A stretch of DNA of 64,000 nucleotides from assembly GCF_034421375.1 (NCBI RefSeq), contig NZ_CP139779.1, positions 1,860,001-1,924,000 on the forward strand, given 5' to 3'. A model generated the notes under the pieces. It saw only the letters and a list, made by a program, of their open reading frames with translations, searched no databases and had not been told where the DNA came from. Source of the DNA: Microbacterium invictum. Its GTDB lineage: Bacteria > Actinomycetota > Actinomycetes > Actinomycetales > Microbacteriaceae. The position numbers were made by a program, and so were the translations under genes. This document shows, piece after piece, positions 40,401 through 46,520 of this stretch; positions within the stretch are counted from its first letter, which is position 1, and each line of letters opens with the position of its first letter.

Positions 40401-41402
40401 TCACGGGAGCACGATCACCTGCGCGCCGAAGACGAGTCCCGCGCCGAACCCGATCTGCAGCGCCAGTCCGCCGCTGAGCTCGGGGTGTTCTTCCAGCAGC
40501 CGGTGCGTGGCGAGCGGGATCGACGCGGCCGACGTGTTGCCGGTCGTCTCGATGTCGCGCCCGATCAGCACCGTGTCGGGGAGCCTCAGCTGCTTGGCGA
40601 ACTCGTCGATGATGCGCATGTTGGCCTGGTGGGGGATGAAGGCGGCGAGATCGGATGCCTCGACACCGGCCGCCTCCAGCGCTTCGCGGGCGACCTTCAC
40701 CATCTCCCACACCGCCCAGCGGAAGACGGTGGGACCCTCCTGACGAAGCGTCGGCCACGGCGCTTTCCCGTCACGGAAATCGGTCAGCGTGTGGTTCATC
40801 CCGACCGCGTCCGACTTGGAGCCGTCCGATCCCCACACCGTCGGTCCGATCCCGGGTGTCTCACTCGGGCCGACGACGACGGCTCCGGCTCCGTCGCCCA
40901 GCAGGAAGGAGATGCTGCGGTCGGCGGGGTCCACGACGTCGCTGAGCTTCTCGGTTCCCACCACGATCGCGTAGTGCGCCGCTCCGGCGCGGATCAGCGC
41001 GTCAGCTTGAGCGACCCCGTAGGCGAAGCCGGCGCACGCCGCGTTGACGTCGTAGGCCGCCGCGGGATTGGCGCCCACGCGATCGGCGACGATCGCCGAC
41101 ACCGAGGGGGTCTGCTTGGGGTTGCTGATCGTCGCGCAGATCACCAGATCGATTGCGCCGGGATCGACACCCGAGCGTTCGATCGCCTCCCGCGTGGCTT
41201 CGGCGGCCAGGTCGATGGCATCGGTGCCCGCTCCGGCGCGCATGCGGGTGACGATCCCGGTGCGCTGACGTATCCACTCGTCGCTGGAGTCGATCGGACC
41301 GACCAGGTCGTCGTTGGGGACGGTGAGCTCGCCGCGGGAAGCGCCGTAGGAGAGGATGCGGGTGTGCGCGGCGCCGGTGGGCTGGCGGAGGGAGACGGTC
41401 AT
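40401..41402 (-). CDS. fabH: 3-oxoacyl-ACP synthase III (KAS III)
   Basis: Starts fatty acid synthesis by condensing an acyl-CoA primer with malonyl-ACP; 333 residues. Cys-His-Asn triad: Cys in VNAACAGFAYG, His in IPHQANMRII, Asn in TGNTSAAS. ATG 41402 overlaps the fabD stop by 4 nt; the frame open to 41579 is a fabD shadow. In this group branched-chain primers are likely, but specificity cannot be read from the sequence. Confidence 0.95.
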   Translation of the reverse strand: MTVSLRQPTGAAHTRILSYGASRGELTVPNDDLVGPIDSSDEWIRQRTGIVTRMRAGAGTDAIDLAAEATREAIERSGVDPGAIDLVICATISNPKQTPSVSAIVADRVGANPAAAYDVNAACAGFAYGVAQADALIRAGAAHYAIVVGTEKLSDVVDPADRSISFLLGDGAGAVVVGPSETPGIGPTVWGSDGSKSDAVGMNHTLTDFRDGKAPWPTLRQEGPTVFRWAVWEMVKVAREALEAAGVEASDLAAFIPHQANMRIIDEFAKQLRLPDTVLIGRDIETTGNTSAASIPLATHRLLEEHPELSGGLALQIGFGAGLVFGAQVIVLP

Positions 41403-42313
41403 TCGGAGGATCCTTCCCAGAGCTCGACGGCGGCGGCGAGGTCGTCGGGGGTCCTCACGGCCACGGTCGGGATGCCGCGGAGCGCCCGCTTGGCGAGCCC
41501 GGTCAGGGTACCCGCAGGGGTCAGTTCGATGATGCCGGTGACCCCGGCGGCAGCGAAGCTCTTCATGCACAGATCCCATCGGACCGGCGAGGCCACCTGC
41601 TCGACGAGAAGATCGATGAACGCCCGCCCGGACTCCACGGCGGCGCCGTCACGGTTCGTCCAGATCGTCCGCAGCGGATCACCGCCCACGGTCTGCGAGG
41701 CGGCGTCCCGGAGCGTCGTCACCGCGGGTGCCATGTAATCCGTGTGGAAGGCGCCCGCGACCTGCAGGGGGATGACCCGCGTGCCTGCGACGGGCTCGGC
41801 CGCCAGGCGATCGAGGTCGGCGCGGGCTCCGGCGGCGACGATCTGTCCGGCGCCGTTGTGATTGGCCGGCGTCAGGCCCAGCGAAGCGAGCTTCTCGAGG
41901 ACCGCGGCCTCGTCGCCGCCGATGACAGCGCTCATCCCGGTGTCGGCCTGCGCCGCGGCATCCGCCATCGCCCGACCACGGACGCCGACGAGGCGCAGCA
42001 CCTCGGCGTCGGGGAGGATCGCGGCAGCGGCGGCCGCGGTGAACTCACCGACGGAGTGCCCGGCGACGCCCGCCACCTGACGGGGCCGGCCCAGCTCGCC
42101 CCAGGCGAGGAGGCCGGCGGCGACGATGAGCGGCTGCGCGATCTTTGTGTCTCGGATGCGATCGGCGTCCCACTCCGTTCCGGCCGCGACGAGGTCGACC
42201 TCGGCGGCGTCGGAGTAGATCTCGATCGTCTCTCGGGCGCCGGGGATCTCCAGCCACGGGGCGAGGAACCCCGGTGTCTGCGAACCCTGCCCGGGGAAGA
42301 CGGCGATGATCAC
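41399..42313 (-). CDS. fabD: Malonyl-CoA:ACP transacylase
   Basis: Transfers malonyl from CoA to ACP; 304 residues. PGQGSQTPGF start, nucleophile Ser in AGHSVGEF, catalytic His in GAFHTDYMAPA. GTG 42313 has AAAGGA 7 nt before it. First gene of the fab operon; the 5' region carries a palindrome shared with aceE. Confidence 0.95.
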   Translation of the reverse strand: MIIAVFPGQGSQTPGFLAPWLEIPGARETIEIYSDAAEVDLVAAGTEWDADRIRDTKIAQPLIVAAGLLAWGELGRPRQVAGVAGHSVGEFTAAAAAAILPDAEVLRLVGVRGRAMADAAAQADTGMSAVIGGDEAAVLEKLASLGLTPANHNGAGQIVAAGARADLDRLAAEPVAGTRVIPLQVAGAFHTDYMAPAVTTLRDAASQTVGGDPLRTIWTNRDGAAVESGRAFIDLLVEQVASPVRWDLCMKSFAAAGVTGIIELTPAGTLTGLAKRALRGIPTVAVRTPDDLAAAVELWEGSSE

Positions 42314-42378
42314 GGTTCCATCCTTTCAATGATCGTGCGGCGGCTTCTGGAGGTCACGACACAGAAATGGCCAGAGGC

Positions 42379-42395
42379 TTTGTGCGTTTCGCACA
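42379..42395 (-). promoter_or_regulatory. Candidate FasR operator upstream of fabD
   Basis: Perfect palindrome TTTGTGCGTTTCGCACA (core TGTGCG-TTT-CGCACA), 66 to 82 nt before the fabD start, between fasR and fabD. A 14/17 match (TTTGTTCGCTCCGCACA) lies 61 to 77 nt before aceE. That FasR binds it is inference from position. Confidence 0.6.
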
Positions 42396-42404
42396 GGAAG
42401 GGGG

Positions 42405-43598
42405 TCACCCGACCCGTCGCGGTCCAGGAGAACGTCGACGCGTGGCATCCGTTCCGATCGATCCGAGGATCAGGGCCGTCTGCAGGATGAGGGCCTCACG
42501 GGGTCCCGTGGCATCCCACCCGATGACCTCCGACACCCGCTTGAGCCGATAGCGGACGGTGTTCGGGTGCACGAAGAGCTCGCGCGCCGTCGCCTCGAGC
42601 GACCGGCCGTTGTCGAGGTAGCTCCACAGCGTCGTCACGAGGTCGGAGCTGTGGCTCTGCAACGGGCGGTAGATCCGCTCCACCAGCGTCTGCTTCGCCA
42701 GCGGATCGCCCGCCAGTGCGCGCTCGGGGAGCAGATCGTCGGCTTCGACGGGCCGCGGGGCATGACGCCACGCGCGGGCGACGGCGAACCCGGCGAGGGC
42801 GGCCCGGGCGCTCTGACTCGCGTCGACGAGGGCGGGTACGGCAGGACCGAGCACGAGGTAGCCCGTACCGAAACCGGGTTCGAGACGCCGCGCGATCTCA
42901 TCGAAGGGCAGATCGGTGGGGGTGTCGTCACCGCGCGGCGAATCGGCGCGGCCGACGACGAGCACGAGCCGCGACCCCTGCACCCCGATGAGCACGTCGA
43001 CGCCGAGCTTGCGGGCGGTGCGCCGCAGCTGGTCGACGTCGAACTGCGGGGGGGTCGTGCCGACGAGGACCGCGACCTCGCCGTGACCGTGCCAACCGAG
43101 CGCGGCGATCCGGCTCGGCAGTTCCTCATCGGCCTCGCCGGTGAGGATGGAATCGACCACCAGCGCCTCCAGGCGCGCGTCCCACAGGCCACGGGCCTCC
43201 GCCGCGCGAGCGTAGACGTCCGCGGCGGCGAAGGCGACCTCGCGTGAATAGAGCAGGATCGCCTCGCGGAGATTCTCGTCCTTGCCCGCCACCCGCTCCT
43301 CGGTCACCTCCACGGTGACGCGGATCAGCTGCAGCGTCTGCGTCAGCGACACGCTTCGCAGCAGCTCACGGGGTGCGGCGGCGAAGATGTCCGCGGCGAT
43401 CCAGGGCGTGGAATCCGGATCGTCGTACCACTGGATGAACGAGCTGATACCCGCCTGGGCGACCAGTCCCACTGCCGACCGGCGCGCCGGGGGCATCTCG
43501 GCGTACCACGGCAGCGAATCCTCGAGACGCTTGATCGTGGCCGTGGCGAGGTCGCCCGAGATGCGCCGGAGCCATGCGAGGGTTTCGGCCTTGTCCAT
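42405..43598 (-). CDS. fasR: PucR-type transcriptional regulator, FasR-like activator of fatty acid synthesis
   Basis: 397-residue regulator with an N-terminal ligand/effector region and a C-terminal PucR/CdaR-type helix-turn-helix (about 325-380: NGRSLEATARELFVHPNTVRYRLKRV). Its place directly before fabD-fabH-acpP-fabF matches Streptomyces FasR, an activator of the fab operon. ATG 43598 chosen over GTG 43613; neither has a clear SD. Starts 25 bp after the aceE stop on the same strand, so it may be read from aceE transcripts. Confidence 0.88.
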   Translation of the reverse strand: MDKAETLAWLRRISGDLATATIKRLEDSLPWYAEMPPARRSAVGLVAQAGISSFIQWYDDPDSTPWIAADIFAAAPRELLRSVSLTQTLQLIRVTVEVTEERVAGKDENLREAILLYSREVAFAAADVYARAAEARGLWDARLEALVVDSILTGEADEELPSRIAALGWHGHGEVAVLVGTTPPQFDVDQLRRTARKLGVDVLIGVQGSRLVLVVGRADSPRGDDTPTDLPFDEIARRLEPGFGTGYLVLGPAVPALVDASQSARAALAGFAVARAWRHAPRPVEADDLLPERALAGDPLAKQTLVERIYRPLQSHSSDLVTTLWSYLDNGRSLEATARELFVHPNTVRYRLKRVSEVIGWDATGPREALILQTALILGSIGTDATRRRSPGPRRVG

Positions 43599-43623
43599 CT
43601 TCGGAGGCGTCACGGCGTCGGGA

Positions 43624-46350
43624 TCAGCTCTCGCCGCCCGCGTTCCCGCTCGTGCCTGCGCTGACGTCGTGCAGGCGGTACTTCTCGATCGCCTGCACCG
43701 AAAGGGAGCGATCCACCGTGCCCTCGGCGGCGAGGGCCTGAAGGGTCTTCACGACGATCGACGGTCCGTCGATCTTGAACCACCGCCGCGCCGCCGGGCG
43801 GGTGTCGGAGAATCCGAACCCGTCGGCGCCGAGGGTGTGGAAGTTGTGCTGCACCCAGGGGCGGATCTGATCCTGCACGGCGTGCTCGAAGTCGCTGACC
43901 GCGACCACCGGTCCCGGCGTGCCCGCGAGCTTGTCGGTGACATATGCGGTGCGCTGCTCGCCGTCGGGGTGGAGGAAATTGTGCTCGTCGGCGGCGAGGC
44001 CGTCACGGCGCAGCTCGCCCCACGAGGTCACCGACCACACGTCGGCCTGGACGCCCCAGTCGTCGCGGAGCAGCTGCTGCGCCTCGAGGGCCCACGGCAC
44101 GCCGACGCCCGAGGCGAGGATCTGCGCGCGTGCGCCCTCGCCGGTGGCGGGGGCGATGCGATGGATGCCGCGGACGATGCCCTCCACGTCGACGCCCTCC
44201 GGCTCGGCGGGCTGGACCATCGGCTCGTTGTAGACGGTGAGGTAGTACATGACGTTCGGGTCGGGATGGTTCCCGCCGTACATCCGCTCGATGCCCGCCC
44301 GCACGATGTGGGCGATCTCGTAGCCGTAGGCGGGGTCGTAGCTGACCACCGCGGGGTTGGTCGAGGCCAGGAGCGGAGAATGCCCGTCGGCGTGCTGGAG
44401 ACCCTCGCCGGTCAGCGTCGTCCGACCCGCGGTGGCTCCGATCAGGAAGCCCCGCGCCATCTGATCGCCGGCCGCCCACAGAGCGTCGCCGGTGCGCTGG
44501 AAGCCGAACATCGAGTAGAAGACGTAGACCGGGATGAGCGGCTCGCCGTGGGTGGAGTAGGTCGTCCCGGTGCCGGTGAACGCCGCCAGGGCCCCCGCCT
44601 CGTTGATGCCGACGTGGACGATCTGGCCCTGCGGGCTCTCCTTGTAGGCCAGCAGCAGCTCGCGGTCGACCGAGGTGTAGTGCTGCCCGTTGGGGTTGTA
44701 GATCTTCGCGGTGGGGAAGTAGGCGTCCATGCCGAAGGTGCGCGCTTCGTCGGGGATGATCGGTACGATGCGGTGGCCGAAGTCCTTCACCCGGAGCAGA
44801 TCCTTCAGCAGTCGCACGAAGGCCATCGTCGTGGCGACTTCCTGCGTGCCCGAACCCTTCTTCGGCAGGGCGTAGGCCTGGTCGCCGGGGAGCTCGAGGC
44901 CGACGTGGTGCGTGCGCCGCTCGGGCAGGTACCCGCCGAGGGCACGGCGACGCTCGTGCAGGTACTGGATGGTCTCGTCGTCGGGTCCGGGGTTGTAGTA
45001 CGGCGGGAGGTAGGGGTTCTCCTCGAGCTGCGCGTCGCTGACCGGAATGTGCATCGCGTCGCGGAAGAGCTTGAGGTCGTCGAGCGTCATCTTCTTCATC
45101 TGGTGCGTGGCGTTGCGACCCTCGAAGTGAGGACCCAGGCCGTACCCCTTGATGGTCTTGGCGAGGATGACGGTCGGCTGGCCCTTGTGCTCGGCGGCGG
45201 CCTTGAACGCCGCGTACACCTTGCGGTAGTCGTGTCCGCCGCGCTTGAGGTTCCAGATCTGCTCGTCGCTGTAGTCCTTCACGAGGGCGGCGGCGCGCTC
45301 GTCGCGCCCGAAGAAGTGCTCGCGGACGTAGGCGCCGTTCTCGGCCTTGTAGGTCTGGTAGTCGCCGTCGGGCGTGACGTTCATGAGGTTCAGCAGCGCG
45401 CCCTCGCTGTCGCGGGCGAGGAGGTCGTCCCACTCGCGGCCCCAGATGACCTTGATCACGTTCCACCCGGCGCCGCGGAAGAAGCTCTCCAGTTCCTGGA
45501 TGATCTTGCCGTTCCCGCGCACGGGGCCGTCCAGACGCTGCAGGTTGCAGTTGATGACGAACGTGAGGTTGTCCAACCCCTCGTTGGCGGCGACCTGGAG
45601 CTGACCGCGGCTCTCGACCTCGTCCATCTCGCCGTCACCGAGGAACGCCCAGACCTGGCTGTCGGAGACGTCCTTGATCCCGCGGTTGGTGAGGTACTTG
45701 TTCGTCATCGCCTGGTAGATGGCGTTGATGGGACCCAGGCCCATCGACACCGTCGGGAACTGCCAGAACTCCGGCATCAGGCGAGGGTGCGGGTAGGAGG
45801 GGATCCCGTTGGGGGCCGCCGACTTCTCCTGACGGAAGCCGTCGAGCTGGGCTTCGGTGAGACGGCCCTCGAGGAAGGCCCGCGCATAGGTGCCGGGCGA
45901 GGCGTGACCCTGGATGAAGATCTGGTCACCGCCGGATGGGTGGTCCTGCCCGCGGAAGAAGTGGTTGAATCCGACCTCGTACAGCGCGGCCGAGGACGCG
46001 TAGGTCGAGATGTGGCCGCCGACGGCGATGCCCGGGCGCTGCGCCCGGTGCACGGTGATCGCCGCGTTCCAGCGGATCCACGCACGGTAGCGCCGCTCGA
46101 TCTCCTCGTCACCGGGGAAGTCCGGCTCGTTCTCGGCCGCGATGGTGTTGATGTAGTCGGTGGTGGGAACCATCGGGACGCCGAGGTGCAGCTCCTTCGA
46201 CGCCTTCAAAAGGCTGAGCATGATCTCGCGACCGCGCTGGGGTCCCTTGGCCTGGACCAGCTGCTGGAGCGATTCCTGCCACTCCGAGGTCTCTTCCGGA
46301 TCGCTGTCCTGCGGGCCCTGAGAGTACGGATCCTGGTCGTGAACAGTCAC
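43624..46350 (-). CDS. aceE: Pyruvate dehydrogenase E1 component, homodimeric type
   Basis: Thiamine-diphosphate enzyme that decarboxylates pyruvate and passes acetyl to E2, supplying acetyl-CoA; 908 residues, normal for the AceE type. TPP motif GDGEMDE...NLTFVINCN (about 245-275), transketolase-like central domain and C-terminal domain. The ORF is open to 46431, but GTG 46350 ([12 protein letters not shown]) with AAAGG upstream fits. Adjacent to fasR and the fab operon, which use its acetyl-CoA. Confidence 0.95.
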
Positions 46351-46367
46351 AAGAGACCTTTCTTCGG

Positions 46368-46384
46368 CTGGCAGATCGTGCCAG
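46368..46384. promoter_or_regulatory. Inverted repeat in the aceE 5' region
   Basis: CTGGCA-GATCG-TGCCAG, 18 to 34 nt before the aceE start, overlapping a TTATCT -10-like element (46388-46383, reverse strand). Could be an operator or a 5'-UTR hairpin. Confidence 0.4.
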
Positions 46385-46410
46385 ATAATCACCATGGACG
46401 TGCGGATCGC

Positions 46411-46427
46411 TTTGTTCGCTCCGCACA
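46411..46427 (-). promoter_or_regulatory. Second copy of the candidate FasR operator, upstream of aceE
   Basis: TTTGTTCGCTCCGCACA, 14/17 identical to the fabD palindrome, at almost the same distance from the start codon. It also forms part of a larger repeat GTGCGGA...TCCGCAC (46400-46426). Confidence 0.5.
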
Positions 46428-46520
46428 ACACACCGTCGACAAGCCTAGCGACTCCCTGGTTCGTCGAGAGCGCGGGCGGGCCACGGGCGCGCGAAAGTCT
46501 CGCCGTCGAGGAAATCGCGC

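Follow-up and report, generated by a model that had tools for sequence, protein, structure and literature searches.

Matching palindromes ahead of fabD and aceE as probable boxes of the FasR/MabR-type regulator encoded between them in Microbacterium

On its minus strand, a 64,000-nucleotide stretch of Microbacterium invictum (contig NZ_CP139779.1, positions 1,860,001 to 1,924,000; hereafter the window) carries the genes aceE, fasR, fabD, fabH, and fabF in that order, and closely similar palindromes precede aceE, which encodes pyruvate dehydrogenase (PDH) E1, and fabD, which encodes malonyl-CoA:ACP transacylase. Sequence comparison leads us to regard both palindromes as probable binding sites for the product of the intervening gene, a PucR-type regulator that would activate fabD and restrain, or autoregulate, aceE-fasR. 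The pair was the starting point of an original prediction, which set a 17-mer at 42379-42395, 66-82 bases upstream of the fabD start codon (GTG, 42313), beside another at 46411-46427, 61-77 bases upstream of that of aceE (GTG, 46350), the two being alike in 14 of 17 letters. Sequences, coordinates, strand, identity, and both distances came out the same on recomputation, as did the placement of fasR in the middle of three minus-strand genes, with Pfam domains backing the names of aceE (43624..46350; PDH_E1_M, 1.4e-77), fasR (42405..43598), and fabD (41399..42313; Acyl_transf_1, 5.4e-17). The surrounding genome is a single contig of 3.53 Mb, and the nearest named relatives of the window are Microbacterium sp. 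AK009 and M. kunmingense.

The regulator itself fits well with what is known of FasR and MabR. Its protein combines a GGDEF_2 domain (5e-16) with an HTH_30 domain (4.5e-21) and is, by these Pfam matches, of PucR type; further, both of its halves align with solved Rv2242/MabR chains (9f80, 3.2e-46; 9fb1, 1e-21), with residues 7-134 aligning to the N-domain chain 9fb1, which points, by sequence, to a MabR-like N-terminal globin-like domain. Its gene lies directly upstream of fabD, where a gene for a FasR/MabR regulator is expected. The binding of MabR to its box is modulated by long-chain acyl-CoA. For the mycobacterial fasII operon, the MabR (Rv2242) box ahead of fabD is given as TTTTGT(N)9ACAAAA, and a like site, predicted at about -67 from the fasII start, is given for FasR of Streptomyces coelicolor (PMC5541348). 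The locus studied here resembles that of MabR in having a PucR-type gene directly before fabD, an inverted repeat with nine-base spacing, and a position that would fit an activator, and it resembles that of S. coelicolor FasR in regulator family and in the activator-type position ahead of fabD. Unlike the printed MabR box, the half-sites of the window agree with it in 9 of 12 letters at fabD and in 10 of 12 at aceE; unlike S. coelicolor FasR, Microbacterium has a second candidate site in the aceE-fasR leader; and, unlike at fabD, no box was found at aceE in the sampled loci of other families. Among the open-access papers searched for MabR, Rv2242, or FasR together with aceE or pyruvate dehydrogenase, none was found to describe a FasR/MabR site at aceE or to connect the regulator with PDH, and the words aceE, Rv2241, and pyruvate do not occur in the main text of PMC5541348 or PMC11617747.

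Judged by position and layout, the fabD palindrome (42378..42397, minus strand; CCTGT-N9-ACAAAG) is an orthologue of the known FasR/MabR box. Three sets of loci bear on this. The genus set holds 81 rows (80 Microbacterium loci and the window), of which 77 include both promoters and at least 200 bases before aceE; the family set holds 64 rows from Microbacteriaceae, 57 with fabD in the stretch and 62 with enough sequence upstream of aceE; and the other-family set holds 77 rows, 73 with fabD and 51 with aceE, the upstream sequence sufficing in 19 for the box and in 21 for the hairpin described below. The family and other-family loci are mostly one per genus and derive from 60 of 94 matching genomes and 80 further stretches. 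The neighborhood itself is widely kept: aceE lies within about 4 kb ahead of fasR/mabR in 63 of the 64 loci from the family and in 51 of the 77 sampled from other families, and fabD is present in the fetched stretch beside the regulator gene in 57/64 and 73/77, respectively. Ahead of fabD, a TGT-N9-ACA inverted repeat holds a fixed place, starting at -84 in the window. Specifically, 71 of 73 fabD loci from other families score at least 11/16 against TTTGTAGGNNNCCTACAAA, a level reached by 1.4 percent of shuffles, and the box starts between -81 and -87 in 72 of the 73. Its letters are weaker in the window's own family (mean score 9.9 vs 8.4 for shuffles in 57 loci), where the best match falls at -83 to -85 in 33 of the 57. 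Within Microbacterium, TGT-N9-ACAA precedes fabD in 69 of 77 loci, and the right half tends toward ACAAAG, with A in 52 and G in 50 of the 69 boxes. On a quick tree of the 77 fasR genes (22 of 74 inner branches starred), the half-sites show 1.4 changes per site, compared with 17.8 in the interior and a median of 20 at third codon positions of fasR. Two observations on the sample itself arose from this tree: locus L238 has a fasR region of Microbacterium type and falls among Microbacterium, although its record is named Planococcus sp. APC 4015 (Bacillota), which is probably mislabelled or contaminated, and L185 and L252, both titled Microbacterium aurantiacum, stand far apart, so one of the names may be wrong.

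The same footprint recurs ahead of aceE, where a TTGT-N9-ACAA box (TTGTGCGGAGCGAACAA; 46412..46428, minus strand) is our proposed second FasR box. This strict pattern precedes aceE in 67 of the 77 Microbacterium loci; shuffled upstream sequences yield even the shorter TGT-N9-ACA in only 2.5 percent of cases. The half-sites change 4.25 times per site on the 77-row tree and the interior 17.4 times, against the fasR third-codon median of 20; conserved half-sites thus enclose a nearly free interior, which is the pattern seen at fabD. Here too the right half tends toward ACAAAG (A in 44 and G in 57 of 67), and a matrix trained on fabD sites places 56 of the 77 aceE upstreams above the 99th shuffled percentile and 23 above the 99.9th. 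When this matrix, built from 76 Microbacterium fabD sites with the window left out, was run over the 64 kb of the window, the fabD site came first (25.8), the aceE site second (17.2), and the third place scored 11.8. The slow-fast-slow contrast in rates across the aceE region peaks at the box (13.2; next offset 12.1). The shared footprint suggests that the same protein sits at both.

Genome-wide, the motif is uncommon. TGT-N9-ACAAAG occurs exactly twice, at the two sites studied here (four times for the reversed control), the exact TTTGT-N9-ACA five times (reversed control, 6), and TTGT-N9-ACAA in three places (reversed control, 17). The genome-wide abundance that the original prediction had named as telling against it is not seen. 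The looser TGT-N9-ACAA is common but shows no genome-wide enrichment, with 80 matches vs 138 for the reversed control, and nothing readable as a wider FasR regulon emerges from it. Searched in 39 Microbacterium genomes, the exact TGT-N9-ACAAAG returned the aceE/fabD pairs along with scattered matches and a few strings that recur. The sequence GGCANRAYCTGCC has four other exact matches in the window's genome, one of which (L260) lies antisense within a long open reading frame. A further palindrome, TGTGGTCAGACCACAAAG, found in two Microbacterium genomes (G297 and G311) in the TGT-N9-ACAAAG search, resembles the site of a different regulator.

The promoters around the two boxes differ in geometry. 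The -10 element proposed for fabD (AAGGAT, 42320..42325, minus strand), whose second A and last T each show 0 changes on the tree, ends 7 nt ahead of the GTG and therefore suggests a transcript that is probably leaderless, with the box upstream of the -10 at about -84 to -66. Between them lies a second slow element, TGTG...CCA (TTTCTGTG...CCAGAAG; 42344..42367, minus strand; 1-4 changes per site over TGTG and 0-3 over CCA), about 32 bases, or some three helical turns, downstream of the box, where the activator or RNA polymerase may make another contact. At aceE, a putative -10 is found in 76 of 77 Microbacterium upstreams (TAGGCT in 72, TAAGCT in three, and TAGGGT in one; none in the remaining locus); in the window it is TAGGCT (46442..46447, minus strand; 0-3 changes per site), and across the 66 loci that have both elements, TTGT sets in 18-21 nt downstream of the first base of the -10. 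The box of aceE is thereby downstream of its own -10, the opposite arrangement from fabD. The original prediction had noted the near-equal distances to the start codons; its figures stand, but they do not amount to a common promoter geometry, since the predicted -10 elements are on opposite sides of the boxes. Further, the aceE stop codon lies 25 bp ahead of fasR in the window, and the distance from aceE to the first aligned fasR residue has a median of 29 bp in both genus and family (ranges, 18-2042 and -2-2208). So short a gap argues that aceE and fasR are probably co-transcribed as one unit, and a box ahead of aceE would therefore be autoregulatory.

Several of our observations weigh against assigning both boxes to FasR. 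The start of aceE transcription is predicted from the -10 alone: with the usual spacing it falls near 46435, which would put the box at about +8 to +24, in the transcribed leader. Part of the box also coincides with a possible RNA stem. Ten of the 77 Microbacterium loci do not have the strict pattern (5 changes on the tree), L195, L208, and L229, close relatives of the window, among them. In other Microbacteriaceae genera (59 loci, the 62 family rows minus the window, L129, and L130), TTGT-N9-ACAA precedes aceE once; TGT-N9-ACA does so in eight of the 59 (0.9 expected), four of these being TGTCG-N5-CGACA, which are hairpin stems. Upstream of aceE in other families, none of 19 loci reaches 10/16, and none of 25 has TGT-N9-ACA. 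The latter set comprises 25 of 30 loci, five from Microbacteriaceae being excluded, and covers the region 200-40 bases before the first aligned residue, with start codons not located and the orientation of L306 possibly wrong. Because the box was not seen at aceE in the sampled loci of other families, hardly occurs in other genera, and is missing from part of Microbacterium, it is dispensable, and on these counts we reject a box general to Microbacteriaceae or beyond. The inner dyad of the fabD box is also lacking at aceE, with C before ACAA in 64 of 69 fabD boxes and G or A in 54 of 67 aceE boxes, and the two boxes are not lost together: the strict pattern is missing at fabD in eight loci, at aceE in ten, and at both only in L185. 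In the rate contrast, finally, the fabD box is narrowly surpassed by an offset lying between it and the second element (16.9 vs 16.3 for the box), and gaps of other lengths score much the same, so that a nine-base gap is not singled out; therefore, the weight falls on the match to TGT-N9-ACA rather than on the contrast alone. The search of orthologous upstream regions proposed with the original prediction has accordingly given a split outcome, finding the motif at fabD in 71 of 73 loci of other families and at aceE throughout much of Microbacterium but hardly at all in other genera. Within the loci sampled, the aceE box is, on its distribution, a genus-level addition, a trait of Microbacterium.

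What else might the aceE palindrome be? Given its place within the predicted transcript, it could belong to an RNA element of the 5' leader, with ACAAA looped out of a GGC-nnACAAA-GCC stem or with TTGT pairing to ACAA, which we consider unlikely. The stem (offsets 8-20, 9-19, and 10-18) is 76 percent paired vs 70 percent in shuffles and shows 14 double changes vs 6.3, none of 500 shuffles being as high on either count; slid versions are at most 49 percent paired, and in the window, the stem UGUGCGGA/UCCGCACG lies within the minimum-energy fold. The slid controls, however, include more double changes than the stem itself (19 at -1 and 20 at +2), the number of pair types is matched or exceeded in 494 of 500 shuffles, and the fold of the leader as a whole is equalled by 77 of 200 shuffles (z -0.21). 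By eye, the loci that fail the strict pattern offer no compensatory pair at TTGT/ACAA. Further, the interior columns evolve near the neutral rate, and loci picked on TGT-N9-ACA alone retain the outer T and A in 67 of 67. Half-sites that are kept, spacing that is fixed, and an interior that is near neutral together speak for a DNA site. That site could still be bound by a different regulator with a TTGT-N9-ACAA preference, its likeness to a FasR box being coincidental, since TGT-N9-ACA carries little information and could equally serve other dimeric regulators. The dissimilar interiors at aceE and fabD and the absence of joint loss are in keeping with this. We nevertheless hold it to be quite improbable: the chance rate of TGT-N9-ACA in a leader is the low one given above, aceE apparently shares its transcription unit with the gene of a regulator that has just such a site, and TGT-N9-ACAAAG occurs nowhere else in the genome.

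A very remote alternative is that the letters ahead of aceE are conserved as codons of an N-terminal AceE extension in Microbacterium, beginning at GTG 46431. No stop interrupts this frame in the window, and the aceE frame is free of stops over 28 upstream codons in 66 of 77 loci, compared with 44 and 34 for the other frames (27 codons). From the hairpin to the GTG, there is a weak codon-like period, with third positions changing faster (7.9 vs 4.3 and 4.0). In the window's frame, the two variable letters of the loop, N and Y, are third positions of His and Asp codons. Over the box itself, however, no period of three appears (12.4, 10.6, and 12.4), in 28 of the 77 loci the stretch from the -10 to the hairpin offers no ATG, GTG, or TTG in frame, and TTGT is out of the aceE frame in 29 of 67. 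The frame of the hairpin, likewise, differs in 14 of 77 Microbacterium loci, of which 13 still have the NRAYC loop, and is spread 16, 15, and 8 in other genera.

With these alternatives weighed, the reading of both palindromes as FasR boxes remains the one we favor, and a mechanism can be sketched from it. FasR would be the protein at both boxes. At fabD, bound some 75 bases ahead of a leaderless-looking transcript start, it would activate; at aceE, a FasR dimer at +8 to +24, just past the -10, would impede promoter clearance or elongation. With fasR so close behind aceE, the aceE box would then act as negative feedback on fasR, and bound FasR would lower PDH as well. Of the steps in this proposal, the sign of the effect at aceE is the weakest. 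The position of the aceE box in the predicted leader makes simple co-activation of PDH and fatty acid synthesis less likely than restraint or autoregulation of aceE-fasR. The single regulator joining PDH to fatty acid synthesis, as originally envisaged, is partly borne out: the palindrome at fabD is an orthologue of the known box, and its footprint recurs at aceE across Microbacterium, while the link is not general at aceE and its leader position does not suit the simple design. The idea stands with the probable sign at aceE reversed and autoregulation added.

Separate from the box, the aceE leader contains a second conserved feature, a putative RNA hairpin with an NRAYC pentaloop (CTGGCA-CGATC-TGCCAG; 46368..46384, minus strand) just ahead of the Shine-Dalgarno-like GAAAGG (46357..46362, minus strand), itself unchanged at six of six sites on the 77-row tree. 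Such hairpins, of at least 4 pairs, are found in 73 of 77 Microbacterium aceE upstreams (1.9 expected; 2 with the loop of the other strand) and in 36 of 62 across Microbacteriaceae (1.7 expected; 1 with the other-strand loop), the latter including three Microbacterium, all positive. Control regions of the same family loci have it in 2/57, 0/62, 0/62, 1/62, and 0/62, and six of the 62 family leaders carry two in tandem (0.0 expected). Within Microbacterium, pairing of the stem reaches 97 percent, 11 double changes fall on 4 pairs (1.5 in shuffles; as many as 7 when slid), and the loop positions N, R, A, Y, and C show 22, 2, 1, 10, and 0 changes on the tree. Beyond the family, the hairpin occurs in 7 of 21 and 6 of 25 loci, in overlapping sets (0.9 expected in each; upstream control, 1 of 25). 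Rfam gave no match to the leader, either in the window between 46000 and 46700 up to E 5, where one weak match lay elsewhere, or, up to E 1, in the eight family loci scanned out of 62. In five of these eight (L037, L041, L058, L081, and L083), a tRNA gene is encoded on the strand opposite to aceE, about 700-900 bp ahead of it. Leader motifs of aceE have been described in gamma-proteobacteria (the aceE motif; PMC2864571) and in Thioalkalivibrio (aceE-II; PMC11109978). The present hairpin is like both in being a conserved RNA element upstream of aceE and unlike both in its taxa and its small NRAYC-pentaloop form, a separation made on these features. A role in the control of PDH translation or mRNA stability is a natural guess.

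The two features together allow a bolder proposal, which we put forward as doubtful but conceivable: that Microbacterium has rewired FasR into a regulator of two signs, which activates fabD-fabH-fabF from about -75 and blocks aceE-fasR at +8 to +24, with acyl-CoA status thereby setting fatty acid synthesis, PDH, and the amount of FasR in concert, and that the NRAYC hairpin of the leader, a small RNA element not described before, adds a second, post-transcriptional control of PDH. The fabD site is of a known kind, and the aceE site would be a conserved, genus-level second box in an unexpected place. If our reading is true, the box in the aceE leader would directly tie the supply of acetyl-CoA to its use, and it would be the autoregulatory site of a regulator whose mycobacterial relative, MabR, is reported to be essential (PMC5541348). 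The leader hairpin, for its part, would offer a separate handle on how the level of PDH is set in Microbacteriaceae.

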